Below, piece after piece: positions 8,325 to 28,549 of a stretch of DNA of 28,549 nt. The first letter of the stretch is position 1; each line of letters starts with the position of its first letter. The DNA is from a virus: positions 1 through 28,549 of IMG/VR virus record IMGVR_UViG_3300033273_000680, one strand, 5' to 3'. Position numbers and translations under genes: made by a program. The notes below the pieces were generated by a model. It searched no databases. It was not told where the DNA came from and was given only the letters and a program-made list of their open reading frames with translations.

Positions 8325-8356
8325 TTGCAAAGTCTAGTTACTATAAAAATATCTGA
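8321..8356 (+). CDS. Possible 11-codon mini-ORF at the end of the second glycosyltransferase
   Basis: An ATG overlapping the GT stop (ATGA) opens an 11-residue frame (MIAKSSYYKNI) that ends three bases before the next gene's ATG at 8360. Most island genes are joined by this same ATGA coupling, so the ORF could relay ribosomes to 8360 or be the stub of a deleted gene. It may not be made at all. Confidence 0.25.
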   Translation: MIAKSSYYKNI

Positions 8357-8359
8357 GAA

Positions 8360-8863
8360 ATGAATAATATAACTGAACAAGAAGAACTCAAGGCTGACTA
8401 CGATGCTTATTCGCCGGTTACTAATAACTTCTGTGTGTTAGCAGAGGCAGATGAAACAACTGGTATTACGTCTTACATGTGTATGGAGTCGGGATATAGT
8501 ACTACGGATAAATTAAAGATTGGATCGCTAGAAGTCGAGAGATATGAGGAAACGATGACAGAATTAATGAGAGATGCTCGTATTGAAGATGAAGAATCTG
8601 GATTAGTATGGCATCCATCATTTTTACAGTTTCCGTTTGGCATTTTATATATATCCGGTACGGGCGCACATGATATGCATTGGGAAGTCGCTGAAGTGGT
8701 TGATGTTGAAGAACATGAAAAGACTAGCTATCCTATACCTGGACAAGAGGGCCAATACTTTACGTCTAAACTAGATGTAGACAATGCTAAGGTATTTGAT
8801 AAGTTGGACTTTGAAAATGCATTAGATGCATTATATTCAATAGTACAAGGTGTTATGTCATGA
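8360..8863 (+). CDS. Conserved-type phage protein of unknown function inside the glycan island
   Basis: Not recognised. The 167-residue protein is acidic with no signal peptide or membrane segment. The middle (about 74-120) is rich in aromatics (VWHPSFLQFPFGILYISG, then MHWEVAEVV) and looks like a compact beta domain; the ends are helical (KLDFENALDALYSIVQG). No glycosyltransferase DxD or EX7E and no nucleotide-binding loop is visible, so it may be structural or regulatory. It overlaps the next GT gene by ATGA, which places it in the same operon. TGAGAA before the ATG is a weak ribosome site. Confidence 0.75.
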   Translation: MNNITEQEELKADYDAYSPVTNNFCVLAEADETTGITSYMCMESGYSTTDKLKIGSLEVERYEETMTELMRDARIEDEESGLVWHPSFLQFPFGILYISGTGAHDMHWEVAEVVDVEEHEKTSYPIPGQEGQYFTSKLDVDNAKVFDKLDFENALDALYSIVQGVMS

Positions 8864-9477
8864 AGATAAGTTATGCTATACCAGTATGTAACGAATGGAT
8901 GCAACTTGAATATCTTTTAACTTATCTGTCCAAGCATAAACGTGAACAAGATGAGATTATAGTCCAATGTGATAAAGGAAACACTACACCTAGTGTATAT
9001 CAAGTGTTGGAAGAACATAAGGATAAAATTCAAGTAATTGAATTTCCTTTAAACAAAGACTTTGCATCGTTCAAGAATAATTTAAAAGACCATTGTTCCG
9101 GAGATTATATCTTTCAAATCGATGCCGACGAATATCCAGATGAGTATCTTATGGATACGATTGAATGGTTGATTACAAATAATCCCGGTGTTGATATTTT
9201 CTGGGTACCGCGTATCAATACTGTACAAGGATTGACACAAGAGCATATTGATAAATGGAAATGGCGAGTCGATCCTGACGGGAAAATTAACTTTCCAGAC
9301 TATCAATGTCGTATTTTAAAGAATGTCAAACGCATAAAATGGAAAAACAAAGTACATGAGGTATTAACCGGATATAAGACAGAATCACAGATACCGGCTA
9401 ATAAAGAATTTTGTATACATCATCCTAAGACAATTAAGCGTCAGGAAGAACAAAATGCATTTTATGATACGATATGA
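8860..9477 (+). CDS. GT2-family glycosyltransferase
   Basis: An inverting GT-A glycosyltransferase. The N-terminus ISYAIPVCNEWMQLEYLL is the typical GT2 opening, and the metal-binding DxD is DAD (88-90) in FQIDADEYP. The second half has W161 and KVHE (164-167), found in compact GT2 enzymes resembling the SunS or TPR-linked type. The 205 aa length is short for GT2 but contains the whole catalytic core. It starts in the ATGA overlap with the unknown 8360 gene and overlaps the next gene the same way. The acceptor is unknown. Confidence 0.88.
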   Translation: MKISYAIPVCNEWMQLEYLLTYLSKHKREQDEIIVQCDKGNTTPSVYQVLEEHKDKIQVIEFPLNKDFASFKNNLKDHCSGDYIFQIDADEYPDEYLMDTIEWLITNNPGVDIFWVPRINTVQGLTQEHIDKWKWRVDPDGKINFPDYQCRILKNVKRIKWKNKVHEVLTGYKTESQIPANKEFCIHHPKTIKRQEEQNAFYDTI

Positions 9478-10490
9478 TTAAGATCAAATTAACAAATTGG
9501 AACAAGGGTCGTAATAATCATACATTTAGACCATTTCTAATGTATGCGGAGCATTTTCAGCAAATCGGTGTTCAGTTCGTAGAAGATGGTAGTTATGATT
9601 ATGAATTTATTGGCATGTCCGATTTTCTAGATAAATCCATTCCATTGCAAGATAGTATTAACATGGGCATCGATGCCTTATCAAAAAAGACGGGCGATTA
9701 TTTTTTATTCGACGGATCCGATTCGACGTCGCTTATGGCAGCATATGAAGTGTTCAAAGAATCTAATGCACAGTACTTGTTTAAGACTGCAAAAACGACT
9801 CGTGAACAATATAATAAGTCATCTGCCTTTAATAAATGGTTCTTCGGATCAGGTAGTGATTTAGATTTAGCATATGACATACCACAAGATGTATACGATC
9901 GTATTAAGCTAACAGGGTGGAACTTTGGTTATTATAATCCAGACTATACAAAGTTTGACGTCGCATTTAACGATCGTACGATAGACGTATGTGCTATATA
10001 TCAAGGATTTCACAAAGAAAATAGCGATCATGGTGTACGTAATGATTTAATGTATACAAAACATCGTACCGGCGCATGGAATGTTTTAGAATCGTCGACA
10101 GGCATTTCATATGAAAAGGACCGTCGCCCCTTCCCGGAATTTGCAGATATACTGCGTCGTAGTAAATGTACATTGTCCCCGTTCGGAATGGGCGAGCCGT
10201 GCTTTAGAGATTTTGAGATTATTCAATTTGGCAGTGTTATGATAAAGCCTGATATGAGTAACGTCATTACACATCCAAATATATACAAGCCGTATGAGAC
10301 ATACATTCCATGTGAATTAGATTGGTCAGACTTAATCGAAAAAATTGAATGGGTTAAAGATAATCCAGCTAAGTGTGCTGAAATAGTAGAAAATGCTAGA
10401 CAAACAGTACAAAAAGCATATAGTATTGAAAATTTGTTATTATATTGGTATGAAATGATACAGACATTCAAGGGAGCAACTGTTGAGTAA
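9474..10490 (+). CDS. Exostosin-like/GT-B glycosyltransferase (putative)
   Basis: Probably a glycosyltransferase. The C-terminal donor-binding half shows L234-S235-P236 in LSPFGMGEPCFRDFEIIQFG, then SVMIKPDM. This matches the exostosin/GT1-type SPxGxGxxxxRxxExIxxG pattern that holds the nucleotide sugar. The N-terminal half (1-150) is divergent and gives no motif. At 338 aa it is within GT-B range. It overlaps upstream by ATGA and downstream by 8 bases with a gene starting at TTG. The family assignment rests mainly on the C-terminal block. Confidence 0.7.
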   Translation: MIKIKLTNWNKGRNNHTFRPFLMYAEHFQQIGVQFVEDGSYDYEFIGMSDFLDKSIPLQDSINMGIDALSKKTGDYFLFDGSDSTSLMAAYEVFKESNAQYLFKTAKTTREQYNKSSAFNKWFFGSGSDLDLAYDIPQDVYDRIKLTGWNFGYYNPDYTKFDVAFNDRTIDVCAIYQGFHKENSDHGVRNDLMYTKHRTGAWNVLESSTGISYEKDRRPFPEFADILRRSKCTLSPFGMGEPCFRDFEIIQFGSVMIKPDMSNVITHPNIYKPYETYIPCELDWSDLIEKIEWVKDNPAKCAEIVENARQTVQKAYSIENLLLYWYEMIQTFKGATVE

Positions 10491-11229
10491 ATATTTGATA
10501 TATACATTAGCTGTTAATTCGGAAAATCGAAATGTCGATGATAACGGCATATTTAACATTACTAAACAAAGTTGGCAACATTATTGTGACCGCCATGACA
10601 TAGATTTTCATGTTATTGATACGCCGCCATTGAATGTAGGTACGCCGCATTGGTTTAGATATTTCATTTTTGATGAGAAGCCTGGATATGACAAGTATCT
10701 GTATATCGACTCAGATGTAATGGTACATTGGGATGCTCCGAACATATTTGAAATATATCCTGACGATAAATTACATGTAGTGCGAGATAATTCTGGCTTA
10801 GGATGGATTTGGGAAGGCATACATCTTTATCAGCAACTGTTCGAAGGCGTTTCATTAGACTGGGAGCGTTATTTCAATTCAGGTGTTATGATGTTTTCGC
10901 AGAAGCAACGATCGTTAATCGACGGCTTCAAAGAGTTCTACAAAGAAAATGCCGAGACAATAACAGACTTTCAAAAGCAAGTACGTAAAGGCTTTGATCA
11001 GACGCCATTCAATTATTTTAATGCGTATAATGAGACTGATATCGTATTTATGTCAGAAAAATTCAATTTAACGCATTTAATGCGTAAAGAGATATTACAT
11101 GCCGACTATTTTGTAAATATGGCATGGTTTTGGCATTTCAACGGATTGCCGCGCGAACATCAGCAACAATTTATACAGCAGTTATGGACTAAGATAAAAA
11201 CTAATTATAGTATACAGGGAGCTAAATGA
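10483..11229 (+). CDS. GT8-like glycosyltransferase with a TTG start
   Basis: A probable retaining GT-A enzyme of the GT8 type (glycogenin/LgtC relatives). The manganese-binding DxD is DSD (76-78) in KYLYIDSDVMVHWD. RYFNSGVMMFS is the conserved GT8 middle motif, and the C-terminal WHFNGLP resembles the GT8 HFxGxxKPW box. The 248 aa length is usual. The start is TTG at 10483: it has an AGGGAG site (10470-10475) eight bases upstream, overlaps the previous stop by 8 bases, and gives the expected short N-terminus before LIYTLAV. No ATG near the beginning would keep that first strand. Confidence 0.8.
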   Translation: MSKYLIYTLAVNSENRNVDDNGIFNITKQSWQHYCDRHDIDFHVIDTPPLNVGTPHWFRYFIFDEKPGYDKYLYIDSDVMVHWDAPNIFEIYPDDKLHVVRDNSGLGWIWEGIHLYQQLFEGVSLDWERYFNSGVMMFSQKQRSLIDGFKEFYKENAETITDFQKQVRKGFDQTPFNYFNAYNETDIVFMSEKFNLTHLMRKEILHADYFVNMAWFWHFNGLPREHQQQFIQQLWTKIKTNYSIQGAK

Positions 11230-11915
11230 AAATATTATTCGTGATACCTACGCTATTTAATGATCCGAATATAGTAAAAGAATGTGTTGATAGTATTAAC
11301 AGTTCATTGCCAGATTCGAATGATCATACAATAACAGTTGTATGTAATACTGCAAATGATGAATTCGAAAAATGGACGCCGCCAGCGAATGTGATTAAAG
11401 AATGTAGTAATGTGAAATATAACATTTCGCGCGCGATCAATGTCGGCATCTCAAAGCGTACTACAGAAGAATACATTTGTTATGTCGACCATGGTACTAG
11501 ATTCCAAGAAGGATGGTTAGCCCCGATTCTAAAATTATATCAACAGCATGACAATATAGGCGTCATTGGCAATCGGAAACATAGTACATTTCGATACTAT
11601 CACAATCGATTATCTGAGAATGCCTGGGATGTTTTATGGACTGATGGCATCATGTTTATGACATATGATACATTTAAGTTGGTCGGAGAATTTGATGAAT
11701 CATACTTTGCCGATTGTGAGACTCAAGATTTTTGCTATAAATTAATTGAACATCATAATCGTATGAATATTGCAATTGATAGTGAGTATTTGTCACATGC
11801 ATATAGTCCCAATTCAAATACCGATCGTAGGGAATTATTTAACGTACAAGAGTCGTCGAGAAAATTGTTCATGTCACGTTGGGACGAATGGAGAAGAAAT
11901 AGGTATAACCAATGA
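11226..11915 (+). CDS. GT2-like glycosyltransferase with an atypical DxD
   Basis: A GT-A protein starting MKILFVIPTLFNDPNIV and continuing with ISRAINVGISKRTTEEYICYVDHGTRF. The DxD position reads DHG (88-90), so the second acidic residue is missing. Later elements fit GT2: GEFDESYFADCETQDFCYKL, with the E-x-x-D catalytic-base pattern. The 229 aa length fits a compact GT2. The missing acid could mean another metal ligand or lost activity. The ATGA overlaps on both sides make it part of the island's translational chain. Confidence 0.8.
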   Translation: MKILFVIPTLFNDPNIVKECVDSINSSLPDSNDHTITVVCNTANDEFEKWTPPANVIKECSNVKYNISRAINVGISKRTTEEYICYVDHGTRFQEGWLAPILKLYQQHDNIGVIGNRKHSTFRYYHNRLSENAWDVLWTDGIMFMTYDTFKLVGEFDESYFADCETQDFCYKLIEHHNRMNIAIDSEYLSHAYSPNSNTDRRELFNVQESSRKLFMSRWDEWRRNRYNQ

Positions 11916-12916
11916 GTAAGACAGTATTAATTACAGGCGTTGCTGGCTTACTTGGATCTAGACTAGCAGATTGGATAATCGAAAATCACCCCGATGTTAA
12001 AGTAGTAGGCATCGATGATTTAAGTGGTGGTTATAGAGAAAACATTAACCCTAAGGTTGAATTTTGGAAATGGAACTTAGTCGACCACCATCTTAATAGT
12101 CTTTTTGAAACACATAAATTTGATTATGTATTTCATTTTGCTGCTTATGCTGCCGAAGGGCTATCTCCGTTTATAAGGGCATATAACTATGATAATAATC
12201 TAAAATCGACGGCTCGTATAGTAAATGAGTGTATTAAACATGATGTTAAAAGACTAGTATTTACTTCTACATTAGCAGTTTATGGCCATGGTGATGGAGG
12301 AGTATTTGATGAATCACAAACACCTAAACCTATAGATCCGTATGGCGTTGCTAAATATGCATGTGAAATGGATATTCAAATTGCGGGTGAGCAGCATGGA
12401 CTAGATTGGTGCATTATTAGACCACATAACGTATATGGAATTAAGCAAAATATATGGGACAAGTATAGAAACGTATTAGGCATATGGATGTATCAACATT
12501 TAAATGGTCAGCCCATGACCATCTTCGGAGATGGGGAGCAGACTCGAGCATTTAGTTTTATTGATGATAGTCTAGAACCATTATGGAATGCCGCTATCCG
12601 TCCGGAGGCTAGTAAAGAGATTATTAACTTAGGTGGTATTGAAGAGATATCAATTAAGGATGCGGCTAATGTAGTACGTGAAGTAATAGGCGCCGGCGAA
12701 ATAGTATACTTAGAACCTAGACATGAGGTAAAGCATTCGATTCCTACTTATCAAAAGTCAATTGATATTTTAGGATTTGAATATAAGACTAAGATGAAAG
12801 AAGGCTTAGAACAGATGTGGAACTGGGCAAAAGAACAGCCCATGAAAGAACGATTTGTATGGCCTAAATATGAATTAGATAAAGGTATCTATAATTTCTG
12901 GAAGAATAAGTCATGA
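11912..12916 (+). CDS. NAD(P)-dependent epimerase/dehydratase, extended SDR family
   Basis: A nucleotide-sugar modifying enzyme of the GalE/UXS/RmlB group. The Rossmann loop is GVAGLLG (9-15), D37 in IDDLSGG suggests NAD preference, and the FTSTLAVYG strand carries the catalytic Ser/Thr. The YxxxK pair is Y144 and K148 in DPYGVAKYACEM, followed by IIRPHNVYG. At 334 aa it is full length. With the UDP-glucose dehydrogenase in the same operon, plausible products are UDP-galacturonate, UDP-xylose or UDP-galactose; the sequence does not decide. It overlaps both neighbours by ATGA. Confidence 0.93.
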   Translation: MSKTVLITGVAGLLGSRLADWIIENHPDVKVVGIDDLSGGYRENINPKVEFWKWNLVDHHLNSLFETHKFDYVFHFAAYAAEGLSPFIRAYNYDNNLKSTARIVNECIKHDVKRLVFTSTLAVYGHGDGGVFDESQTPKPIDPYGVAKYACEMDIQIAGEQHGLDWCIIRPHNVYGIKQNIWDKYRNVLGIWMYQHLNGQPMTIFGDGEQTRAFSFIDDSLEPLWNAAIRPEASKEIINLGGIEEISIKDAANVVREVIGAGEIVYLEPRHEVKHSIPTYQKSIDILGFEYKTKMKEGLEQMWNWAKEQPMKERFVWPKYELDKGIYNFWKNKS

Positions 12917-13578
12917 AACCTGCATTTGTAGTAACTGTACATCAGAGTGAACAGTATAGGCCGGATGGTCATAATTATTTAGATCGTTATCTTAAGACAT
13001 TAGATGAGATGATGGTAATCGACTATGATGTTTTCATTATGGAAAATGCATCAGAACGAAAGTATAATGCGCCATCTAAATATCATTATCACTATTTTCC
13101 TGATCAATTAGGCGGTATGACCCGTGCATGGAATATGGGCGTCAAGTTAGCTATTGAGAATGGTAATGATTTCATATGTGTGACTAATGAAGATATCTTC
13201 TTCAATTCTACCATCAATAAAATGTTCGAGACAGCGATATCAATTGATGATAGAGATAATATTATATATGGTCCGGTATGTGATAACCCAACGACATTTC
13301 CGCATCAAATATCATCAAAGCCGACCGATCAGATAAAGGATATAACTGGCACTGCACATGGCATCCATGGATGGTTTACGGGATTTACGGACAAATATTA
13401 TCACAAGTATAATGTAGATGGAAATATATTTGAGCCCGAAAAGTTATGGCGCGGACAAGAAAAATTTCAATATCGTGATTGGAAACGTGGCGCTCGTAGT
13501 TATGTCATCGGTGCATGTTTAGTTCATCATGACCATACCGGAAGTTGGAAAAAGACTAGTCAGGATATACCGCAATGA
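12913..13578 (+). CDS. GT2-like glycosyltransferase
   Basis: A probable GT-A glycosyltransferase. It shows MKPAFVVTVHQ as first strand, then FPDQLGGMTRAWNMGVKLA (62-80), the helix that usually precedes the donor site. NED (92-94) in FICVTNEDIFFN stands where DxD is expected. The second half contains HGWFTGFTDKYY and FQYRDWKRGARSYVIGACLVH. At 221 aa it is compact. The first acidic position of DxD is Asn here, so donor binding may differ. Family membership is clear from the layout; the sugar is unknown. Both ends are ATGA overlaps. Confidence 0.75.
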   Translation: MKPAFVVTVHQSEQYRPDGHNYLDRYLKTLDEMMVIDYDVFIMENASERKYNAPSKYHYHYFPDQLGGMTRAWNMGVKLAIENGNDFICVTNEDIFFNSTINKMFETAISIDDRDNIIYGPVCDNPTTFPHQISSKPTDQIKDITGTAHGIHGWFTGFTDKYYHKYNVDGNIFEPEKLWRGQEKFQYRDWKRGARSYVIGACLVHHDHTGSWKKTSQDIPQ

Positions 13579-14489
13579 TTAAAATTTTAGCAATTACTCC
13601 CGACGGAAAGACGGATGCATTAGCAACGGGCATCATCGAAGGGTTAGTTCAATGCAATGATGTTGAATTGTTTTGTACAAATAAAGGCAATTCAGCAGTG
13701 AACATAGTATCAGCAGAACGGGCGCGCGAATTATCGACAATTGTAGATTACGTGTTTGTTATACATGGTAAACGTCCGGGCGATTACTCATTATTAAATG
13801 ACATAGATTGGGAGAAGGTCGTAGTAATAGATGGATCAGAATGGTCTTTCAATTACTTGCCTATAAACAACTTAGGCTCAATTGAAAAGTTAGTCAATGA
13901 GGAGTGGGCTAAGAAAGCTAAATACTATTTCAAACGAGAGTGCTATCCGCAACATTGTGCAATGGGTATACGACCATTACAGTTTACAGCATTAGATTCA
14001 GATTTCGGCGGTCATGATGAAGAAAAAACTATCGATGTATTATGTGCTTTCCCGCGCGCCGATCATCATTGGCCTGATCATAATGCAATGAGCTATAGAC
14101 GAATGGCTATTAATGCATGTAAAGAATTGCAAGATGAAGGTTATAAGATTGTTGTAGGAACTGTGACGGATTATCTACGAAATGTTAATCGGTCATGGAT
14201 AACTATCGATGCTTACGGCGGAGGCGAATTCAATCGACGTACTAAACAAATTATAGCAAATAAATCTGCATTGTTAGCAAAAAAATATCAAATTCAGTTA
14301 CATGATTTGATTGAAGATGAACATTATTATGCGTGGGATTCTACTGACGAACTTAAGAACAAAATAAGACAGTTGTTAGCTAATAAATCGCAGTTGCAAG
14401 ATTTGATCGATCATTCGTATGATCATATATGCAACAAACATACTAGTGTAGCAACTGCTCAATATATACTTAATGAGATACAACAATGA
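13575..14489 (+). CDS. Putative GT-B glycosyltransferase, CgeB-like
   Basis: A 304-residue protein with a GT-B layout. The N-terminal Rossmann half begins MIKILAITPDGKTDALATGI. The linker KYYFKRECYPQHCAMGIRPL is the 'forced to surface' pattern seen in CgeB-type transferases. The C-terminal half includes NRRTKQIIANKSALLAKKY and DSTDELKNKIRQLLANKSQL, the usual end of such enzymes. There is no clear EX7E glutamate pair. The last residues ILNEIQQ include an L-N-E, but in a setting that does not look like a leader. Overlaps upstream and downstream are ATGA. Confidence 0.6.
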   Translation: MIKILAITPDGKTDALATGIIEGLVQCNDVELFCTNKGNSAVNIVSAERARELSTIVDYVFVIHGKRPGDYSLLNDIDWEKVVVIDGSEWSFNYLPINNLGSIEKLVNEEWAKKAKYYFKRECYPQHCAMGIRPLQFTALDSDFGGHDEEKTIDVLCAFPRADHHWPDHNAMSYRRMAINACKELQDEGYKIVVGTVTDYLRNVNRSWITIDAYGGGEFNRRTKQIIANKSALLAKKYQIQLHDLIEDEHYYAWDSTDELKNKIRQLLANKSQLQDLIDHSYDHICNKHTSVATAQYILNEIQQ

Positions 14490-15088
14490 ATTCATTATTA
14501 GATCATCCTAGAATTAATGACTTGTCATTTACGGACAAAAAATTATGGCATAGTTACTTGCCAGTATATGATAAATATTTAACGCCACATCGTAACGAGA
14601 CTTTTAATATTCTGGAGATCGGCGTCAGCTGTGGAGGGTCATCGACTCTCTGGCACGATTTTTGCGAAAATATACACATACATGCAATCGATGTATTGCC
14701 AGAACCCATACTAGTACGAGATAAAGAACGTATAACATATTATCAGCGAGAAGGCACTACTACCTCCGGAGGCGGATATGATTTAGATGTCATCGACGAT
14801 TTTATTGATCGCGGCATAAAGTTTAAATTCCTTTTCGAGGATGGACCGCATAGTTTAGAGACTATGATATTTGTAGCTCAACATTATCACAGAGTATTAG
14901 AAGAAGATGGGACTATCTTTATCGAGGATATCAAAAATCTTGACTGGGTGAAAGAAATACAAAATGCATTGCCTGAGAATATGATATCGAAAGTTTACGA
15001 CTTACGTGAAGAAAAGGGACGATTTGATGACATTGTCATGGCAATTAAGTTTAAAGGACAATCATTTATAGAGGACGGAGATGCCTAA
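14486..15088 (+). CDS. Class I SAM-dependent methyltransferase 1 of the glycan island
   Basis: A probable methyl donor enzyme for sugars of the island. The SAM loop is NILEIGVSCGGSS (41-53), the acidic ribose ligand is D69 in HIHAIDV, and FLFEDGPHSLETM and GTIFIEDI follow as later strands. The pattern recalls cephalosporin-hydroxylase/MTase_24-like small enzymes. The 200 aa length is sufficient for a bare methyltransferase fold. An ATGA overlap joins it to the CgeB-like gene, and an 8-base overlap joins it to a second methyltransferase. The substrate is inferred from location only; a protein or small molecule is possible. Confidence 0.78.
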   Translation: MNSLLDHPRINDLSFTDKKLWHSYLPVYDKYLTPHRNETFNILEIGVSCGGSSTLWHDFCENIHIHAIDVLPEPILVRDKERITYYQREGTTTSGGGYDLDVIDDFIDRGIKFKFLFEDGPHSLETMIFVAQHYHRVLEEDGTIFIEDIKNLDWVKEIQNALPENMISKVYDLREEKGRFDDIVMAIKFKGQSFIEDGDA

Positions 15089-15632
15089 TTTTTTTAAGAT
15101 GCGTGATAAGAAGCATGCATGTGACGGCTTAAAAGATATGATTAATCATACTAATTTAGCGAATGCGAGTATGATTGAAATAGGATGTTATATGGGCGAT
15201 AGTACTAAAATATTCGCCGATTCGGGTAGATTTACGAAAATTTATGCAGTAGATCCATGGGTAGCTGGATATGATGACCGAGACGCAGCATCTAGATCTG
15301 ATTTCAAATATGTAGAAACTGCATTTGATCAATTCGCTGATGAATATGATATAGTAGAAAAAATAAAAATGACATCGAATGATGCTTTGAGTAAATTTGA
15401 TAATCATTCTGTGGACTTAGTTTACATCGATGGCGACCATCGCGCGGAAGCAGTTAAGAATGATATTAGAAACTATCGCGATATTATACGCCCGGGCGGA
15501 TATCTTGCTGGTCATGATTGGACAAATGCTAAAGTCGGTCCCGCAAAGGAGATCCGTGAAGCCATTTTAGAAATAATGGAACGTCATCCTGATCAGACAT
15601 TTTCAGATTGTAGTTGGATTTATAAATTATGA
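15081..15632 (+). CDS. Class I SAM-dependent methyltransferase 2 (MTase_24 type)
   Basis: It has the MTase_24 pattern: MIEIGCYMGDSTKIF (31-45) as SAM loop, D58 in IYAVDPW, and VDLVYIDGDHRAEAVKNDI with GGYLAGHDW near the end. The 183 aa length is typical. It directly follows methyltransferase 1 with an 8-base overlap but is only distantly similar, so they are not a recent duplication. Two different methyltransferases in a sugar island suggest methylation at two positions or on two sugars; this is inference. The downstream overlap is ATGA. Confidence 0.85.
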   Translation: MPNFFKMRDKKHACDGLKDMINHTNLANASMIEIGCYMGDSTKIFADSGRFTKIYAVDPWVAGYDDRDAASRSDFKYVETAFDQFADEYDIVEKIKMTSNDALSKFDNHSVDLVYIDGDHRAEAVKNDIRNYRDIIRPGGYLAGHDWTNAKVGPAKEIREAILEIMERHPDQTFSDCSWIYKL

Positions 15633-16582
15633 AACATACTAAATTTGCTATAGGATGTTTAGTTCAGTGGTACGAATGTGATATCATCGAACGATACGTC
15701 GATTCATTGACAGATGCTATAGATCAATATCAGGGTGAGGTCACAGTTGATTTTTTAGTATGTGCTAATCAAGATCTAGAGAAATGTATCGATCATAGAC
15801 AATTTGCTAAATGTCAGATAAAAATCAAAAGCATTTTATCCGATAATCGATTTACAGTTACATTTACGGATCAATTAATTACAATTGCAGATTATCGTCG
15901 TACATTTAACGAAAAATATTGTGATAGTGCAGATGTCCTAGTATGGGGTGAGAGCGATGCTATCTTGCCCAAACAAATGTTTACTATATTAAACAACTTA
16001 CACCATGTATCGGTACAGAATAACAATATGAAGTATTTAGCTACGTTCGGTACATGTAAGATGTGGGATGATACTTGGAAGTCATTAGAACATCCTAAGT
16101 TTACAGACAAAAAACATTCTGATAATAGAGAAGATTGGTGGTCTGTTAATTATACAATGACGAAGGATGAGATGAATGATATTAACGACGAGACAACGGA
16201 ACTAGATGTAAATGTTTTGCCTAATCATAAATTTAACGGATGTGGATTGGTAATTGCATCGGAAGTTATACGTTCTGGAGTTAATATACCTAAATCCATT
16301 TTCTTTGTTCATGAGGATACTGCATTTATGCATATGACAAATAAAGTATTAGGCAATATACCCCAGTATGTTATTAGAAATATATTGTTAGTACATAACA
16401 GAAAATGTATGCAAAAACGAAAGTACATTAAAGATGAATCGGGTGATAGCATCGGACAGTTACGTAGTTCAAATGATTGGTATAAAGTAGCAAATCAAAT
16501 GTGTCAACAGAATTATCTTAACCTATTCAATCCTTCGTATAAATCAAAATCATGGAAAGACGTATGGCAACACCTCGCATAA
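15629..16582 (+). CDS. Probable GT-A glycosyltransferase, divergent
   Basis: A 317-residue protein, not confidently placed. It opens with KFAIGCLVQWYECDIIERYV and has VLVWGESDAILPKQMF (104-119), where ESD sits at the GT-A DxD position. FNGCGLVIASEVIRSG and FFVHEDTAFMHM resemble the late GT2 segment with the acid base. The C-terminal 60 residues are basic and unlike known GT2 tails. No signal peptide or membrane segment is seen. Its place between methyltransferase 2 and two GT2 genes supports a role in the same pathway. It may be an inactive or novel GT-A type. Confidence 0.55.
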   Translation: MKHTKFAIGCLVQWYECDIIERYVDSLTDAIDQYQGEVTVDFLVCANQDLEKCIDHRQFAKCQIKIKSILSDNRFTVTFTDQLITIADYRRTFNEKYCDSADVLVWGESDAILPKQMFTILNNLHHVSVQNNNMKYLATFGTCKMWDDTWKSLEHPKFTDKKHSDNREDWWSVNYTMTKDEMNDINDETTELDVNVLPNHKFNGCGLVIASEVIRSGVNIPKSIFFVHEDTAFMHMTNKVLGNIPQYVIRNILLVHNRKCMQKRKYIKDESGDSIGQLRSSNDWYKVANQMCQQNYLNLFNPSYKSKSWKDVWQHLA

Positions 16583-17481
16583 CAACTTGTATCTCTTCGA
16601 ATAACAATTTAGAATATCTCAAGTTAGCAGTACGATCTGTACGAGAAAATGCATTTTACAAAGACATGCCTATTATTGTCTATGCAGAAAATTGTACAGA
16701 TGGCACTAATGAATGGCTAGCTAACAATGATTATGATATTGAATATTATATCGAATCTAATGATGAAGAGAAAGGAATTGGCGGCGGAATGGATTTCTGC
16801 GTAAATAAAGCTAAGACAGAATTTGTTAACATCATCCATTCAGATATGTGTATCGCGCCAAATCAAGACTTAGAACTACTTAAGTTATATGATGACCTAG
16901 ATCCTAATGAAAAACTTATTGCATCATCATTTCGAATTCAACCAAAGATATTTCCTAACGACCCCGAATATCGACCCGGCACGGTATTTGTACCCATAAC
17001 AGAGTTTGGAGCATATCATCATGATTTCGACTCGGAATATTTCAATAAATGGTCTTTGGAATTTTGTAAAGAAAATGATATATTAGTTAGGAAAGCCGGC
17101 GGTGCAGGATTCTTCTGTAGAAAAGCAGATTATGAATGGATTGGCGGTAATGATCCTAGATTTGCCCCAGCCTCATGGGAAGATATGGATTTATTTATAC
17201 GGATGCAATTAGAAGGATATACATTTAAGATGACTAGTAAATCAGTAGTATGGCATTTCTCTGCGCGAGGTAGTCATTTTAGGGATGAAGCTAAAGATAA
17301 TTTTAAAAGCAAGTCCCAGCGACAACAAACAGCTGAACAAGTAAATGCTCAGAAGTTTTATGATAAATGGGGAACATTACCGCAACATGATTCGGAAACA
17401 TTTGTAATGCCAATCCATGGAACAAACGTACAAACAAGATTAGGAAGTTATGAAGATAAGTTTAATACAGCCCTCTCGTAA
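16564..17481 (+). CDS. GT2-family glycosyltransferase, first of a tandem pair
   Basis: A GT-A enzyme opening MATPRITTCISSNNNLEYL; the HSD at 92-94 in FVNIIHSDMCIAPNQD holds the metal position. NDPRFAPASWEDMDLFIRMQ contains the catalytic acid of the family, and VVWHFSARGSHFRDEA follows. I chose ATG 16564 because GGAAAG lies just upstream; ATG 16552 in frame would add four residues. It overlaps the divergent GT upstream by 19 bases and the next GT by 32. It is clearly paralogous to the next gene along the donor-binding half. The acceptor is unknown. Confidence 0.85.
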   Translation: MATPRITTCISSNNNLEYLKLAVRSVRENAFYKDMPIIVYAENCTDGTNEWLANNDYDIEYYIESNDEEKGIGGGMDFCVNKAKTEFVNIIHSDMCIAPNQDLELLKLYDDLDPNEKLIASSFRIQPKIFPNDPEYRPGTVFVPITEFGAYHHDFDSEYFNKWSLEFCKENDILVRKAGGAGFFCRKADYEWIGGNDPRFAPASWEDMDLFIRMQLEGYTFKMTSKSVVWHFSARGSHFRDEAKDNFKSKSQRQQTAEQVNAQKFYDKWGTLPQHDSETFVMPIHGTNVQTRLGSYEDKFNTALS

Positions 17482-18628
17482 TAATTTAAAATATCTCAAA
17501 TGGTCATATGATTCAATACGTAAGAATCAAGGCAATCATGTAGTAGAGATTTGTGTAGCAGATGATGATAGTAGTGACGGTACATGGGATTGGTGCCAAG
17601 AGCGAATGTCCGAAGATGAACATTTTAAAGCCATTCGTAATGAAACGGGAAAAAGATTAGGACACACGATATTATATGATCGATTGGTTAATGAGGTTGC
17701 TACTCATGAGATTTGTATGATATATCATGCAGATATGTATCTATGTCCCGGGGCATTAGATTCAATTGAAGAGCATTTAGATGATAAAACTATCATATCA
17801 TTAACTAGAATCGAACCTCCATTGCACCCAGATGGCCCAGAAAAAGTGCTGAAGGATTTTGGAGTCGAGCCGGAAGAATTTAATGAAGAAGAACTTTTAA
17901 AGTTTATAATGGAACCTAAATGGTCATGTGGTCAAACTACAGAAGGCATTTTTGCCCCATGGGCATTTTGGAAAAAAGACTTTCAGGAGATAGGGGGCCA
18001 TGATCCATTATATGCTCCGCAATCAAAAGAAGATAGCGATATCTTTAACAGATTTCAACTTAATGATATTGTATTTAAGCAGACATGGGATGGGTATGTG
18101 TATCATATGACATGTAGAGGTAGTAGACGTAATACTGTTGATAAGGCGAAGAATATATACGAAGATAGTCCAGAGTGGTTAGCTCAGAACATGAGATCGA
18201 CTAGGAACTTTATACGTAAGTGGGGTCATTTCGTTAAACATGATAAGTACATGAAGCCTATCATTCCGCATAAGTATCGTACATTATTTAGAGTAGATAA
18301 CTGTACTAATGAATTATTACATGCATTAGAACCGTGGTGTGATATGATTGCAGTGGATATGAACTTCTCTGAATACATTAATGCGGAACAGATCAATACA
18401 GTCTATGACCTGTCAAAACGAGTTACGGTACATAATTTTCCAAATACTAAGGGCGGCGTCGAAGTATTGATTAATGGGCGTAAATTTGATCAACAAGATT
18501 TTCAAATAATACAACAGTTATCTGAAATATTAGCTGATAGCGGAGAAATAGGTCAATTCGCTATTGGTAATTTATCTATAATCGTGCATGATTTGCACAC
18601 ATATGAAAAGGAATTGATCCATGTATAA
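17450..18628 (+). CDS. GT2-family glycosyltransferase with a C-terminal extension
   Basis: A GT2 catalytic domain covers about 1-265: ISLIQPSRNNLKYLKWSYDSI, CVADDDSSDGTWDW (35-48), HAD (93-95), HDPLYAPQSKEDSDIF and VYHMTCRGSRRNT. The same boxes, in the same order, occur in the upstream gene, so the two arose by duplication. Residues about 275-392 form an extra domain (LFRVDNCTNELLHAL, YDLSKRVTVHNFPNTKGG, FQIIQQLSEIL) not present in the upstream copy and not recognised. The ATG lies 32 bases inside the upstream gene with an AGGAAG site before it. It overlaps the dehydrogenase gene by 8 bases. Confidence 0.85.
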   Translation: MKISLIQPSRNNLKYLKWSYDSIRKNQGNHVVEICVADDDSSDGTWDWCQERMSEDEHFKAIRNETGKRLGHTILYDRLVNEVATHEICMIYHADMYLCPGALDSIEEHLDDKTIISLTRIEPPLHPDGPEKVLKDFGVEPEEFNEEELLKFIMEPKWSCGQTTEGIFAPWAFWKKDFQEIGGHDPLYAPQSKEDSDIFNRFQLNDIVFKQTWDGYVYHMTCRGSRRNTVDKAKNIYEDSPEWLAQNMRSTRNFIRKWGHFVKHDKYMKPIIPHKYRTLFRVDNCTNELLHALEPWCDMIAVDMNFSEYINAEQINTVYDLSKRVTVHNFPNTKGGVEVLINGRKFDQQDFQIIQQLSEILADSGEIGQFAIGNLSIIVHDLHTYEKELIHV

Positions 18629-19448
18629 AATTGGAATCATAGGACAAGGCTTCGTTGGCAACGCAGTATATCAAAAGTTCAAGCAATACTACGATATAAA
18701 GACATATGATTTAGATTCATCTAAATGTAATGCATCTGAAGAAGAAGTGTTGTCGCAACAAATTGTTTTTGTCTGCCTTCCGACGCCGATGAATATGTCC
18801 GACGGTAGTTGCAATACAGAACTAGTAGAATCTGTAATCGAAAAATGTGCATCTTCAGGCCATGTGCAAATTGCAGTAATCAAATCTACAATTCCGCCTG
18901 GCACGACTGAACGTATTAATGCCAAGTATAAAGATATGACAATTGTATTCAATCCTGAGTTTTTAACTGAGGCAAATGCTGTCAATGACTATGAAAATCA
19001 GACTAGAATAATTTTAGGCGGCGATCGTAAAGGTACGACACCTCTTAAGCCTATTTTTGCAAAAGTCTTTCCAAAGGCTAAGATTATTAAAACTCATTCT
19101 ACATACGCCGAAATGGTTAAGTATGTAACTAATAGTTTTTTAGCTGCAAAGGTATCATTTGCAAATGAAATGTATACTATATGCAAAGCTATTGGCGCCG
19201 ATTATGATAAGGTTATTGAATATGCTACGTTAGATGATAGATTAGGATATTCTCATTGGGCAGTACCGGGTCCCGACGGCGATTTTGGGTATGGCGGTCA
19301 TTGCTTTCCTAAAGATGTAAAAGCGCTAATATCAGTAGCGACGGATAACGAAGTAGATACTACGATATTATCAGCGACAGATTCTAAAAACAATCTAGTA
19401 CGTAAAAATCGTGATTGGGAATCTATGGAAGGACGTGCAGTAGTCTAA
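18621..19448 (+). CDS. Short UDP-glucose 6-dehydrogenase (nucleotide-sugar dehydrogenase)
   Basis: It would oxidise UDP-glucose to UDP-glucuronate with two NAD+. The Rossmann loop is GQGFVG (8-13). CLPTPMN, IKSTIPPGTTE, NPEFLTEANAVNDYENQTRI, KYVTNSFLAAKVSFANE and the thiol box GYGGHCFPKD with catalytic C228 are all present; the usual Ser before Cys is His. At 275 aa it stops about 100 residues before the usual end, so the C-terminal UDP-binding domain found in 390-450 aa enzymes is missing. The frame ends cleanly in TAA, and the next gene starts 12 bases later, so this is a natural short form or a partner protein supplies the domain. It is the last gene of the island. Confidence 0.85.
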   Translation: MYKIGIIGQGFVGNAVYQKFKQYYDIKTYDLDSSKCNASEEEVLSQQIVFVCLPTPMNMSDGSCNTELVESVIEKCASSGHVQIAVIKSTIPPGTTERINAKYKDMTIVFNPEFLTEANAVNDYENQTRIILGGDRKGTTPLKPIFAKVFPKAKIIKTHSTYAEMVKYVTNSFLAAKVSFANEMYTICKAIGADYDKVIEYATLDDRLGYSHWAVPGPDGDFGYGGHCFPKDVKALISVATDNEVDTTILSATDSKNNLVRKNRDWESMEGRAVV

Positions 19449-23380: not shown

Positions 23381-23771
23381 GTTTAACATACATGATTGGC
23401 AAGGCAAGATGCGCCGTCAAATGAATGAAGTATCATACAAAGACCATAGAGGTGATACATTTTCTATCAAGGCAATTAGCTTTACATACATAGAGCAAGG
23501 CGGACTTTTCTATGGAGCATATCTGTATGATGTACCTAAGACGGCAAATGTAGGACATAGAGCTAAGTTAGGATATAAAAGCGCAGCTGCATTATTAAAG
23601 AGAATGGGTATCCAAGGCAAGTTGCCTGGCTTCTATGAGCAGTGGGCAGAGGATGGTAGGTATGATCGGTCCGGAGCAGCAAAAGCGGGTTTTGTCGCCC
23701 CGGGCATTATACAACAATTGGAAGATAAAGGTATCGTCGTTGATGTTAACGACTTGATGGACGTTTCATAA
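23373..23771 (+). CDS. Small protein with an N-terminal W-x11-NE leader-like segment
   Basis: A 132-residue protein with unknown function. It begins MAEFNIHDWQGKMRRQMNE, where M-N-E (17-19) may be a leader cleavage point like those in neighbouring genes. The body has YGAYLYDVPKTANVGHRAKLGY (about 48-69), then a helix LLKRMGIQGKLPGFYEQW and a C-terminal strand-rich part. No catalytic motif is visible. It overlaps upstream by 8 bases and downstream by one (TAATG), so it is translated with its neighbours, which also carry L-x-E-type ends. Confidence 0.65.
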   Translation: MAEFNIHDWQGKMRRQMNEVSYKDHRGDTFSIKAISFTYIEQGGLFYGAYLYDVPKTANVGHRAKLGYKSAAALLKRMGIQGKLPGFYEQWAEDGRYDRSGAAKAGFVAPGIIQQLEDKGIVVDVNDLMDVS

Positions 23772-24388
23772 TGAAGTTGACTCAAATCTTAAATGAGATA
23801 GGTGAGGCTAGTTCTAAGCCATTTAAATGGAGGAGAGGATCTAGTTTATCTCCAAAGGATATGGTTGAGTTACCTGTCAAACCGGACAAAGAGACATACT
23901 ACGACTACTTTTATACCTTCGATGCAAATGGCATCCCGTATAGAATACAATTCAATGGTAGGGTCGAACGAAAACTAACGTTAGAATTGCCTGGCATGAA
24001 GCCATTAACGGATAGAGACAAGTACGAAGTTCGATTGAACGTAGACTTCAATACAGAATCTGGATATGATACTAAAACAACGCCTGATACAAACAAAGGT
24101 GATCAGTTTCGTGTATTAGCTACGGTAGTAGATACTATAGTAGACTTTGTTAAGGACTTTAATAAAGATGGGCCATCCGGTATAGTAGTTGATGAGTTCT
24201 ATATAGCTCCTAAGGCAGATGATGAGGATGTTAGTAAGATGGATTCCAGAAGAGCTAGATTCTATCAAGCATACATCAAAAGACAACTAAACAAAATAAA
24301 CATGTACGGAATTAGATATAGGGCTAGAACTAAATCATACAAAGGTTCCGAATACATTCAATTAGATACATCAACACCGGTCAATTGA
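23771..24388 (+). CDS. Protein with a probable capsid-targeting N-terminus
   Basis: A 205-residue protein, otherwise unknown. The first residues MKLTQILNEIGEAS resemble the T4 capsid-targeting peptide MKTYQEFIAEA of internal proteins: a basic helix, then L-N-E, the prohead-protease recognition rule (hydrophobic-x-Glu). Cleavage after E9 (before Ile) is not the preferred small residue, so GEAS just after may also matter. The body is a mixed alpha/beta domain (YDYFYTFDANGIPYRIQF at 36-53; VVDTIVDFVKDF; RFYQAYIKRQLNKI). It is coupled to 23373 by TAATG. Confidence 0.6.
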   Translation: MKLTQILNEIGEASSKPFKWRRGSSLSPKDMVELPVKPDKETYYDYFYTFDANGIPYRIQFNGRVERKLTLELPGMKPLTDRDKYEVRLNVDFNTESGYDTKTTPDTNKGDQFRVLATVVDTIVDFVKDFNKDGPSGIVVDEFYIAPKADDEDVSKMDSRRARFYQAYIKRQLNKINMYGIRYRARTKSYKGSEYIQLDTSTPVN

Positions 24389-25694: not shown

Positions 25695-25910
25695 ATGTCT
25701 GAAAACTATCTTGAACTAGCAGTCGAAGAAGTATACATGATACTTAATACAGGAAGAACGCCATGGCCCAAGTCTATGCGCGATCCTCATGATAAGATCA
25801 AGTTCTTGGATAGTCTAATCAAACATTTTGAAACAACTGAAGACTATGAGAAATGTAGTTACCTAACGGGAATGAAAAATGAACTGGAAAATCACATCCA
25901 GGCCGATTGA
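25695..25910 (+). CDS. Small helical protein, UVR-hairpin-like end
   Basis: 71 residues, unrecognised. The first half holds LELAVEEVYMILNTGRTPWPKSM; the second (about 45-68, HFETTEDYEKCSYLTGMKNEL) has the E-x-Y-E-x-C-x-x-L spacing of UVR-type helical hairpins, also seen at the end of the 20543 product. It starts three bases after the preceding stop and overlaps the next gene by 32 bases. No enzyme motif is seen. Confidence 0.65.
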   Translation: MSENYLELAVEEVYMILNTGRTPWPKSMRDPHDKIKFLDSLIKHFETTEDYEKCSYLTGMKNELENHIQAD

Positions 25911-26088
25911 TGTTTATGAACTAAGTGATCGCGATCAGCCTACCAAGTATATCGTCTATGTATTAGATGAAACTAGAAGACCGATTGCGGCAGAAGAGGC
26001 ATATGGAATTGCAGATAGAACATCAGTTGTAAAACAGTTCATTGCACGTTACGGGCAACACATTGTTAACATAGAACATGAGAGTTAA
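25879..26088 (+). CDS. Small protein of unknown function
   Basis: 69 residues, not recognised. The segment IDVYELSDRDQPTKYIVYVLD is beta-rich and PIAAEEAYGIADRTSVVKQFIARYG is helical, suggesting a small alpha/beta fold. It shares 32 bases with the preceding gene in another frame. The ATG at 25879 follows GGGAATGAAAA, a moderate ribosome site. The function is unknown. Confidence 0.55.
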   Translation: MNWKITSRPIDVYELSDRDQPTKYIVYVLDETRRPIAAEEAYGIADRTSVVKQFIARYGQHIVNIEHES

Positions 26089-26089
26089 T

Positions 26090-26155
26090 ATGTGGGTTAC
26101 AAATTGTACATATGATGTCGACATCGAATACATCTACACGAAAAAGACGTCGTAA
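26090..26155 (+). CDS. Possible 21-codon ORF overlapping the ClpS-like gene
   Basis: ATG at 26090 opens a 21-residue frame (MWVTNCTYDVDIEYIYTKKTS) ending in TAA at 26153-26155, so it overlaps the start of the ClpS-like gene by 44 bases. It begins right after the 26088 stop. It may be a leader that sets translation of the downstream gene, or nothing; the overlap is its only support. Confidence 0.25.
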   Translation: MWVTNCTYDVDIEYIYTKKTS

Positions 26156-26387
26156 GAAATATCTTTATCTTATGAATGATAACGTTAACTCATTCGATAC
26201 AGTTCGAGTGGCATTAACAAGTCTCATTCCTGGAATGAATGATATAAAAGCAACGTCGATAGCTACCATAGTGCATAATAATAGTCAGTGTAATATCTAT
26301 CAAGGATTTGCACCCGAGATATATGTACTAGCAGCACAATTGAGAAAGCAAGGACTACGTATACAAATTCATAACAAAAGACTTTGA
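26112..26387 (+). CDS. ClpS-like N-degron adaptor
   Basis: 91 residues with a basic N-terminal tail (1-16) and then a ClpS-type domain. N22-D23 in YLYLMNDNVNSFDTV matches the ND(D)xxT/SP/F start of the N-degron pocket, V54-H55 in IATIVHNNS matches the VHxxG pocket histidine, and IYQGFAPEI and the final LRKQGLRIQIH match the C-terminal strand. ClpS delivers proteins with Leu, Phe, Tyr or Trp at the N-terminus to ClpAP. The third pocket acid is Asn24 and the G after VH is absent, so recognition may be altered. A phage could use it to redirect or inhibit host ClpAP. The assignment is from pattern, not from a database match. Confidence 0.7.
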   Translation: MMSTSNTSTRKRRRKKYLYLMNDNVNSFDTVRVALTSLIPGMNDIKATSIATIVHNNSQCNIYQGFAPEIYVLAAQLRKQGLRIQIHNKRL

Positions 26388-26417: not shown

Positions 26418-26885
26418 ATGATAAAAAATGTTCTGACAATCGCATTTATATCAGTAGCAGCTCCAATTGCTACTACGTATACTACGTATGTACCATTACC
26501 TGTTCGACCCATTCAACCTATAAAGGCAGAACCGATTCAACAAGATCCATTGATCAATGCATTAATTATGGTTGAAAGTTTTGGCAATGATAGTGCATAT
26601 AATGCAATGGAAGATGCAGTGGGATGTTTACAGATACGTCCTATTATGGTAAGAGAGGTTAATCGTATTTTGCGTAAGCAGGACGACCCGCGCCGATTTA
26701 AAATGAAGGACCGTTGGGATAGAGACAAATCTCTAGAGATGTTTGATATTTGGCAAACATTCCATCATTCCAATAGTAATCACGAAAAGATTGCTCGTAA
26801 TTGGAACGGCGGACCTAAAGGTTGGAAAAAAGAATCGACCGCATATTATTGGGAAAAGGTGCAAAAACATTTGGAAGTTAACTAA
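26418..26885 (+). CDS. Exported lysozyme-like/transglycosylase-type protein
   Basis: 155 residues. Residues 1-20 (MIKNVLTIAFISVAAPIA) are a signal peptide or N-terminal anchor. E53 in IMVESFGNDSAYNA is the catalytic-acid position of lysozyme-superfamily transglycosylases, with AVGCLQIRPI (67-76) as the following G-LQI strand. IARNWNGGPKGWKKES and YYWEKVQKHL near the end also match. It would cut the glycan strands of peptidoglycan for lysis or entry. It stands alone, with a short gap on each side. No terminator or clear ribosome site is seen. Confidence 0.75.
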   Translation: MIKNVLTIAFISVAAPIATTYTTYVPLPVRPIQPIKAEPIQQDPLINALIMVESFGNDSAYNAMEDAVGCLQIRPIMVREVNRILRKQDDPRRFKMKDRWDRDKSLEMFDIWQTFHHSNSNHEKIARNWNGGPKGWKKESTAYYWEKVQKHLEVN

Positions 26886-26905: not shown

Positions 26906-27256
26906 ATGGTTACAACAAACGTTATAGTTAAATTAGCAGTAGATGGTCTTCATAGTTGGCCAGATGCTAAGAAGGTCTTTCCGGAGGTAGGATTCCTTTC
27001 GGATGTACATCGTCATATGTTTCATTTCAAAGCTAAGAAGCGAGTGAATCATGATGATCGAGATGTAGAGTTTATTATGTTCAAAAGAGATATTGAAGAA
27101 TACTTGCATGATCGGTATTGGAAGCAAGAATATCGTAGTCACTTCTTTGGATCCAAGTCCTGTGAGATGTTGGCTAAAGAGATCCTTGAATACTTTGATT
27201 GCGAGTATGTATCAGTATTTGAAGACGACGAAAACGGAGCAGAGTGTTATGTCTGA
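26906..27256 (+). CDS. QueD/PTPS-like T-fold protein lacking the catalytic cysteine
   Basis: 116 residues that follow the 6-carboxy-tetrahydropterin synthase (QueD) layout. H16 (LHSWPD), H35 and H37 (HRHMF) are likely zinc ligands. VEFIMFKRDIEEYL is the middle helix and SCEMLAKEILEYF (85-97) the late one, and YVSVFEDDENGAE carries the usual Glu. QueD has Cys four residues before the HxH pair; here that place is L31, and no nearby Cys replaces it. So it probably does not do the standard reaction, or it binds a pterin/purine for another use. Queuosine/7-deazaguanine pathways are known in phages, but no other pathway gene is seen in this window. Confidence 0.6.
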   Translation: MVTTNVIVKLAVDGLHSWPDAKKVFPEVGFLSDVHRHMFHFKAKKRVNHDDRDVEFIMFKRDIEEYLHDRYWKQEYRSHFFGSKSCEMLAKEILEYFDCEYVSVFEDDENGAECYV

Positions 27257-27389
27257 ATTGATTAAAGAATGGTATGAATTGCTAGATGCAAATCACGTTA
27301 AGGTAGAGCCGAAAGCATTTACATTGCTTCAGATGGTTATGGAAAACTACGATATTACAAAGAAGGCTGTAGAAGAGGATGCCGTTTAA
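27249..27389 (+). CDS. Small helical protein of unknown function
   Basis: 46 residues (MSELIKEWYELLDANHVKV..., then FTLLQMVMENYDITKKAVEED), all helical. It starts 8 bases inside the upstream T-fold gene and ends 11 bases inside the next, so its expression is linked to both. It is longer than expected for chance given the shared ends, but the function is unknown. Confidence 0.55.
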   Translation: MSELIKEWYELLDANHVKVEPKAFTLLQMVMENYDITKKAVEEDAV

Positions 27390-27906
27390 ACCAGGAGAAG
27401 GCCGACCGGCTATGAATATCTCCGAATCGGAGATCCGTTATGCAATGGAGAATACTAAGTCCTGCGCACAAGCGGCACGATTCCTTAAGATATCATATGA
27501 GGCATTTCGTAAGTATGCCAAGATGTATACGGACTCCGAATCTGGTAAAACATTATTTGAACTTCATAAGAATCCACATGGCAAAGGTGTACCCAGAGTC
27601 CCAAAGAACCCAACAAAGACTCAGGCTAAACTAGAAAACATTTTTGCCGGCAAACATCCTAACTATAACAAACATCGATTGAAAGATAGATTGTTACGGT
27701 CTGGAGAATTTGAAGAATGCTGCTCATCATGCGGATTCAATGAACGACGTGTAAGTGATTATACAGTGCCTTTGTTATTAGATTGGATCGATGGCGATAC
27801 TACTAATCATGCCAAAGAGAATCTAAGGTTCCTATGTTTGAATTGCTATTATCTACAGGTAGGCAATCCATTGGGCGGGCGTATGCGTAATAGTTATGGA
27901 CCGTAA
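27379..27906 (+). CDS. HTH plus degenerate HNH-like zinc protein
   Basis: 175 residues. N-terminal helices (16-50: SEIRYAMENTKSCAQAARFL, then YEAFRKYAKMY) look like an HTH DNA-binding unit. Residues 113-157 hold four cysteines in two knuckles (C115/C118 and C153/C156) around PLLLDWIDGDTTNHAKENLRFL, the layout of HNH domains. The first HNH histidine reads Asp135, so cleavage activity is doubtful; a DNA-binding regulator is equally likely. Homologous conserved proteins occur, to my recollection, in T4-like marine phages. It precedes the sigma70-type promoter. Confidence 0.7.
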   Translation: MPFKPGEGRPAMNISESEIRYAMENTKSCAQAARFLKISYEAFRKYAKMYTDSESGKTLFELHKNPHGKGVPRVPKNPTKTQAKLENIFAGKHPNYNKHRLKDRLLRSGEFEECCSSCGFNERRVSDYTVPLLLDWIDGDTTNHAKENLRFLCLNCYYLQVGNPLGGRMRNSYGP

Positions 27907-28403: not shown

Positions 28404-28409
28404 ATGAAT

Positions 28410-28494
28410 GCCTGGGTGGTGGAATTGGTAGACACGTCAGACTTAAAATCTGATTCTTTTTTAAAGAGTATTGGTTCAAATCCGATAATGAGTA
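28410..28494 (+). tRNA. tRNA-Leu(TAA)-like sequence with a non-pairing acceptor stem
   Basis: The D arm (GTGG, AATTGGTAGA, CAC), the anticodon arm TCAGA-CTTAAAA-TCTGA with anticodon TAA, a long class II variable arm (six pairs, TTCTTT with AAAGAG) and a five-pair T arm (ATTGG-TTCAAAT-CCGAT) are all present at leucine-tRNA spacing. The 5' acceptor GCCTGGG would face AATGAGT (28487-28493) and gives only one Watson-Crick pair plus three wobbles. So the 3' end is either decayed, or displaced by an insertion whose far side is outside the window. The total of 85 bases is normal. Confidence 0.6.
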
Positions 28495-28549
28495 TATTAA
28501 GTAATACTTTGTATTATTATTGTTGAAATTATGTGGTATTTATTATATG

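Follow-up and report, generated by a model that had tools for sequence, protein, structure and literature searches.

A ClpS protein with a polybasic N-terminal tail in a T4-like phage lineage and its possible action on the host Clp protease

The stretch of DNA analysed here, the window, is identical with IMG/VR record IMGVR_UViG_3300033273_000680, a virus fragment of 28,549 bases. A gene on its plus strand (positions 26112-26387, ATG to TGA) encodes a protein of 91 amino acid residues, P0001, which is a real ClpS as judged by its sequence and predicted fold. We propose, with a probability of roughly 40%, that P0001 acts on the ClpC(A)-ClpP protease of the host and biases it away from the delivery of host N-degron substrates.

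Identification of the gene

The translation of the gene is MMSTSNTSTRKRRRKKYLYLMNDNVNSFDTVRVALTSLIPGMNDIKATSIATIVHNNSQCNIYQGFAPEIYVLAAQLRKQGLRIQIHNKRL. It matches the Pfam family PF02617 (ClpS) with E=2.8e-6 and 27.5 bits, exceeding the gathering score of 23, and the profile search suggested as a check when the gene was first noticed is thus settled in favor of ClpS. The order of motifs noticed at that time (ND...S-F, VH and a C-terminal strand) is present in the protein, beginning with ND...NSF. The NCBIfam equivalog models for ClpS give E-values down to 8e-9, the best score being 35.3 bits against a cut-off of 117. A copy of P0001 with 95% identity is carried by a viral contig of 54.9 kb, and the two genes differ by about 19 synonymous and 8 non-synonymous changes. 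The resulting dN/dS of 0.09 indicates purifying selection, as expected for a selected protein.

As the sole query, P0001 retrieved one viral twin and one weak match in a jumbo phage, and a search of phages at the DNA level gave no match. The relatives described below were gathered with alignments, with the downstream neighbor as an unbiased anchor, and with family alignments.

Predicted structure

The AlphaFold2 model of P0001, computed with 39 family sequences, has a pLDDT of 83 and a pTM of 0.68, and shows the topology strand-helix-helix-strand-helix-strand. In a Foldseek comparison with the PDB the matches ranked 1 to 38 are all ClpS structures, including the Plasmodium protein 4o2x. The best of them is Arabidopsis ClpS1 (PDB code 7d34, E=1.2e-6), on which the model superposes to 0.7 Å over 73 columns; the rmsd to E. 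coli ClpS is about 1 Å. The viral models most similar to that of P0001 are annotated phage ClpS proteins. The first bL12 structure appears at rank 39 (E=0.019), and no bL12 model of Pfam was matched by P0001 or by members of its family. The sequence-only reading of this open reading frame as ClpS-like is borne out by Pfam, the AlphaFold model and Foldseek together.

Family, sister branch and cellular controls

Twelve sequences including P0001 form one clade with support 95/84, in trees built on 93 alignment columns from metagenomic contigs. Since they form a single clade, counts taken inside it, here and below, are not independent and Fisher values overstate the case. All twelve match Pfam ClpS at E<=0.01, and none has the canonical triad N34/D36/H66 (E. 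coli numbering). Four of them have Asp, Asn, Asn or Glu in the position of H66, which requires four changes on a poorly resolved tree. The member with Glu (L171) is still recognized as ClpS by Pfam with 30.9 bits and is modelled as ClpS with a pLDDT of 87.

A sister branch occurs in T4-like phages. It comprises 19 sequences sorted by length, 17 of which fall in one clade. These proteins are short (73-83 residues), with tails of 0-7 residues, and mostly start straight on the first strand with MKLFILNDD; no further in-frame ATG was found upstream. The triad is found in 13 of the 19 and H66 in all. By these residues the pocket of this branch is canonical or nearly so; a tail is almost absent.

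The first cellular ClpS set was fetched with a motif including N34, D36 and F40, and conservation of these positions within it arises by construction. A motif-free control was assembled from the 30 best-scoring and 20 low-scoring PF02617 matches in 99 genomes around a Pedobacter. Here 34 of 50 sequences have the triad, most departures from it being D36 to Glu, and 48 have H66. The notion that cells always keep N/D/H was rejected on this count, and phages are not alone in varying at N34 and D36. Compared with this control, what stands out on the phage side is that H66 has been lost and that Asn frequently replaces D36.

Substrate pocket

By alignment with E. coli ClpS, residues N22-D23-N24 (26175-26183, plus strand, like the other parts of P0001, its neighboring genes, the tRNA and the reading frames given below) correspond to N34-D35-D36, and H55 (26274-26276), lost in four relatives, corresponds to H66. 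Phe28 (26193-26195) takes the place of the gatekeeper M40; Phe is usual here in related ClpS, partly by construction in the cellular set because this residue sat inside the search pattern. The β2-α3 segment GFAPEIYVLAAQLRKQGL (26304-26357) is a conserved motif of the P0001 phage family, as seen in the alignment and its column entropies.

In Caulobacter ClpS the α-amino group is contacted by N47, D49 and H79, equivalent to E. coli N34, D36 and H66 (PMC12493166). The corresponding pocket of P0001 reads N-N-H (N22, N24 and H55), with D36 replaced by Asn24, while N22, D23, H55 and the hydrophobic pocket are kept. Arabidopsis ClpS1, which binds N-degrons (PMC7966870), shares the NDN sequence with P0001. 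Because it has the same N-N-H state and binds, P0001 may by analogy still bind N-degrons, and the argument that loss of the pocket acid precludes binding was rejected.

Two peculiarities of the pocket had been noted from the sequence. The replacement of the acid by Asn24 is real; alone, it gives no argument for a retuned specificity, since Arabidopsis ClpS1 is also NDN. The glycine of the VHxxG motif (G69 of E. coli) is indeed replaced by Ser58 (26283-26285), a change private to P0001 and its 95% twin, and ten of the twelve family members keep the glycine.

The columns of E79 and K84, charges that contact ClpA in E. coli, are occupied by F and Y in the P0001 family, in a gappy part of the alignment where the contact helix is placed with uncertainty and E82 was left uncounted. 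The ClpA-contact face varies in cellular ClpS too.

N-terminal tail

The tail of P0001, residues 1-16 (MMSTSNTSTRKRRRKK, 26112-26159), occupies the position of the 25-residue extension of E. coli ClpS. Residues 1-9 are disordered, with a model pLDDT below 50, and a polybasic stretch, R10-K16 (26139-26159), directly precedes strand β1. The tail contains seven consecutive Lys/Arg residues and no proline; the disordered extension with a proline-rich junction taken to mark a delivering ClpS was not found in P0001. The ATG of the gene is the first ATG, GTG or TTG after the upstream in-frame stop, which rules out a longer tail from any of these start codons. At least five Lys/Arg within the nine residues before the core are found in nine of the twelve family members and in none of 127 cellular ClpS; none of the 19 sister-branch proteins and two of 24 other phage ClpS reach this count. 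The short basic tail remarked on in the sequence-only reading is thus confirmed, and it is conserved in relatives.

In E. coli delivery depends on entry of the ClpS extension into the channel of ClpA, most of the sequence of the extension can be replaced without loss of delivery, and ClpS inhibits the degradation of ssrA-type substrates (PMC9663308). Given this tolerance to replacement, the 16-residue basic tail could, by analogy, be a working handle.

Gene neighborhood and other features of the window

The clpS gene is the third in a conserved run. Gene 1 (25695-25910, 71 residues) has a C-terminal EDYEKC/EEYEKCA motif and is syntenic in 18 other loci. Gene 2 (25879-26088, 69 residues) overlaps it by 32 bases and belongs to no known family, and no known relative of it was found. 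Most members of the two branches have both of them ahead of clpS in this order, and the genes often overlap. Gene 1 is UVR-like by eye only; the Pfam UVR model matches 1 of 19 members (E=0.011), and this identity was left as a lead. The resemblance deserves attention, as ClpF, a chloroplast partner of ClpS1, is a UVR protein (PMC7966870). Profile searches of the PDB with the two small genes found nothing. In some tail-less loci (for example L037, 7995-7998) the ATG of clpS shares bases with the stop codon of the small gene before it, which suggests coupled translation.

Downstream of clpS lies a gene similar to SLT-type transglycosylases (26418-26885; Pfam SLT E=0.0023, below the cut-off). It stands between clpS and the next gene in the window and in most relatives, and is missing from the 95% twin (L001/L012; L001 5276-5306). 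The next gene (26906-27256) belongs to phrog_17812, to which no function is assigned; at least 566 viral loci carry a member of this family, and some of these members, on reading, adjoin apparent queuosine, folE and nucleotide genes.

Synonymous distances between the window and L012 are about 0.1 at 27379-27906 and 23771-24388, against 0.3-0.55 in clpS and its neighbors; this contrast reflects mosaic exchange between the two phages. Elsewhere in the window, a long run of glycosyltransferase-, epimerase-, dehydrogenase- and methyltransferase-like reading frames (about 5545-19448, translations read by eye) looks like a phage glycan island. A GIY-YIG homing-endonuclease-like frame (676-1308), also recognized by eye, lies between a dUTPase-like frame and the clamp loader. 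Rfam places a tRNA at 28410-28494 (35.8 bits), which was missed by ARAGORN; the reading frame 28404-28526 at this site is probably spurious.

Phage lineage and host

A T4-type gp23 is present on contigs of both branches. The two gp23 sequences compared are 55-60% identical to those of Flavobacterium phage immuto and Microcystis phage Mel-JY01, and 37-38% identical to that of Rhodothermus phage RM378; ClpS is absent from all three cultured relatives. The contig of one locus, L084 (CALBOT010000027.1), is binned in an archaeal Nitrosopelagicus genome, yet has the gene order of the window phage, and is probably a mis-binned phage.

The cellular ClpS sequences closest to P0001 are from Bacteroidota (30-39% identity in the best matches). 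Together with the Flavobacterium phages among the nearest isolated relatives, this makes a Bacteroidota host likely. Mel-JY01 is recorded from a cyanobacterium. A cyanobacterial origin of the gene, considered for its IPGM stretch and NDN sequence, was set aside in view of the Bacteroidota matches, in a scan whose pattern is blind to cyanobacterial motifs and hence an unfair test.

In eight Bacteroidota genomes no ClpA was found above the cut-off; weaker matches only were seen and taken for ClpB/ClpC. The partner of P0001 would therefore be of ClpC type, and ClpAP, the partner named in the sequence-only reading, is probably wrong, in view also of the Flavobacterium-phage relatives. The sampled Bacteroidota have their own ClpS in 97 of 99 genomes.

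Proposed mechanism and alternatives

We infer from the family and the fold that the ClpS core of P0001 docks onto the N-domain of the unfoldase of the host (a ClpC-type one in the case of a Bacteroidota host) and competes there with the host ClpS. It would then fail to deliver host N-degron substrates as the host ClpS does, because a short polybasic tail replaces the extension and the α-amino pocket of the family drifts. P0001 would fill the adaptor site and might also sit in the pore with its basic tail, so that N-degron turnover is disfavored. The tail-less sister branch might arrive at the same outcome through the converse loss, having a pocket without a handle for the unfoldase to pull, while the P0001 branch appears to have a handle and a drifting pocket. 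This contrast, taken with the extension required in E. coli, leads us to favor interference over faithful delivery. Among retuning, delivering and blocking, the three actions considered earlier, we lean towards blocking or reprogramming. Against blocking, the N-N-H pocket is the state of an N-degron-binding ClpS1; against docking, the E79/K84 charges are absent from the family, in an uncertain alignment. More tentatively, the lineage might be one of pseudo-N-recognins, in which the fold is kept, canonical N-degron reading has been lost repeatedly, and a polybasic tail or the lack of any tail jams or reprograms ClpCP, with two small partners co-encoded.

A faithful or retuned adaptor, binding N-terminal hydrophobic residues and handing ClpCP a changed selection of host or phage proteins, is somewhat less probable. 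N22, D23 and H55 are kept under purifying selection, NDN is natural in the N-degron-binding protein of closest solved structure, a Phe gatekeeper is normal among related cellular ClpS, and delivery has been proposed for the ClpS of jumbo phages (Iyer et al. 2021, PMC7824862). However, H66 has been lost four times among family members with the same place in the gene order, none of which has the canonical triad, and the charge of the tail is unlike that of all 127 cellular ClpS compared. This charge is the most distinctive feature common to the family, and the three-gene run with its overlapping genes is kept across two branches; both would suit an adaptor for new cargo, in which the core docks on the unfoldase and the tail, possibly aided by the two small proteins, captures a target that is acidic or bound to nucleic acid. 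No cargo is known and the small proteins match no family convincingly, and we consider this unlikely.

Use of the ClpS/bL12-like fold outside the Clp system, for example on the ribosome, where the basic tail would bind RNA, seems less probable again. The C-terminal domain of bL12 comes second to ClpS among the folds matched (E about 0.02), and the basic tail, the eroding pocket and the missing ClpA-contact charges would agree with such a role, but ClpS comes first by orders of magnitude in sequence and fold, and a Pfam match to bL12 is lacking. A captured host ClpS that drifts without a current role would explain the varying pocket and the absence of ClpS from Mel-JY01, immuto and RM378; the dN/dS of 0.09, and a position and gene run that two diverged branches have both retained, make it very improbable.

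Interference with the host protease remains our preferred reading. The P0001 family and its sister branch form a natural series, a normal pocket with almost no tail against a basic tail with a drifting pocket. This series separates docking, substrate binding and delivery, and can show whether phages use or disable the host Clp system.

Comparison with known systems

Phage ClpS is a known kind of protein, already described in jumbo phages with a proposed delivery to host ClpAP (PMC7824862). In the searchable literature no paper was found that tests any phage ClpS or treats the P0001 family, and nothing on point about phage Clp adaptors or anti-adaptors beyond that survey. The jumbo-phage proteins (PA5oct, Atu_ph07, GAP32 and Vibrio 2.275.O) share with P0001 a phage-encoded ClpS fold, but are only 8-16% identical to it, some are longer, and no polybasic tail of the P0001 type was seen in their alignment. 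Their gene neighbors also differ, clpS in jumbo phages (L004, L005, L006, L007, L009 and L010) adjoining genes for IF-3, S21 or a small heat-shock protein. The H66 column holds Glu in Atu_ph07, Asp in Vibrio 2.275.O and Lys in GAP32, so the pocket His has been lost in other phages too; His is kept in PA5oct, Phosso and Kaldavass.

The chloroplast ClpS1 of Arabidopsis thaliana (PDB code 7d34) resembles P0001 as its best structural match and in the NDN and IPGM stretches, and it works with a ClpC. The two differ in the gatekeeper, Arg in ClpS1 (PMC7966870) and Phe28 in P0001. Their sequence identity is 27%, and ClpS1 keeps the glycine. To our knowledge, no polybasic tail is described for it.

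Cellular ClpS of Bacteroidota has in common with P0001 the NSF motif and the C-terminal half GL...I, but its tail is about 20 residues long and mildly acidic. E. coli ClpS, the N-recognin of ClpAP, shares the fold, and its N34, D35 and H66 positions are kept in P0001. The differences are D36 to Asn, M40 to Phe and G69 to Ser, the absence of a Pro-Pro junction, the loss of E79/K84 and the replacement of the 25-residue extension. What looks new here is the lineage, a clade of T4-like phages with a ClpS that bears a polybasic tail.
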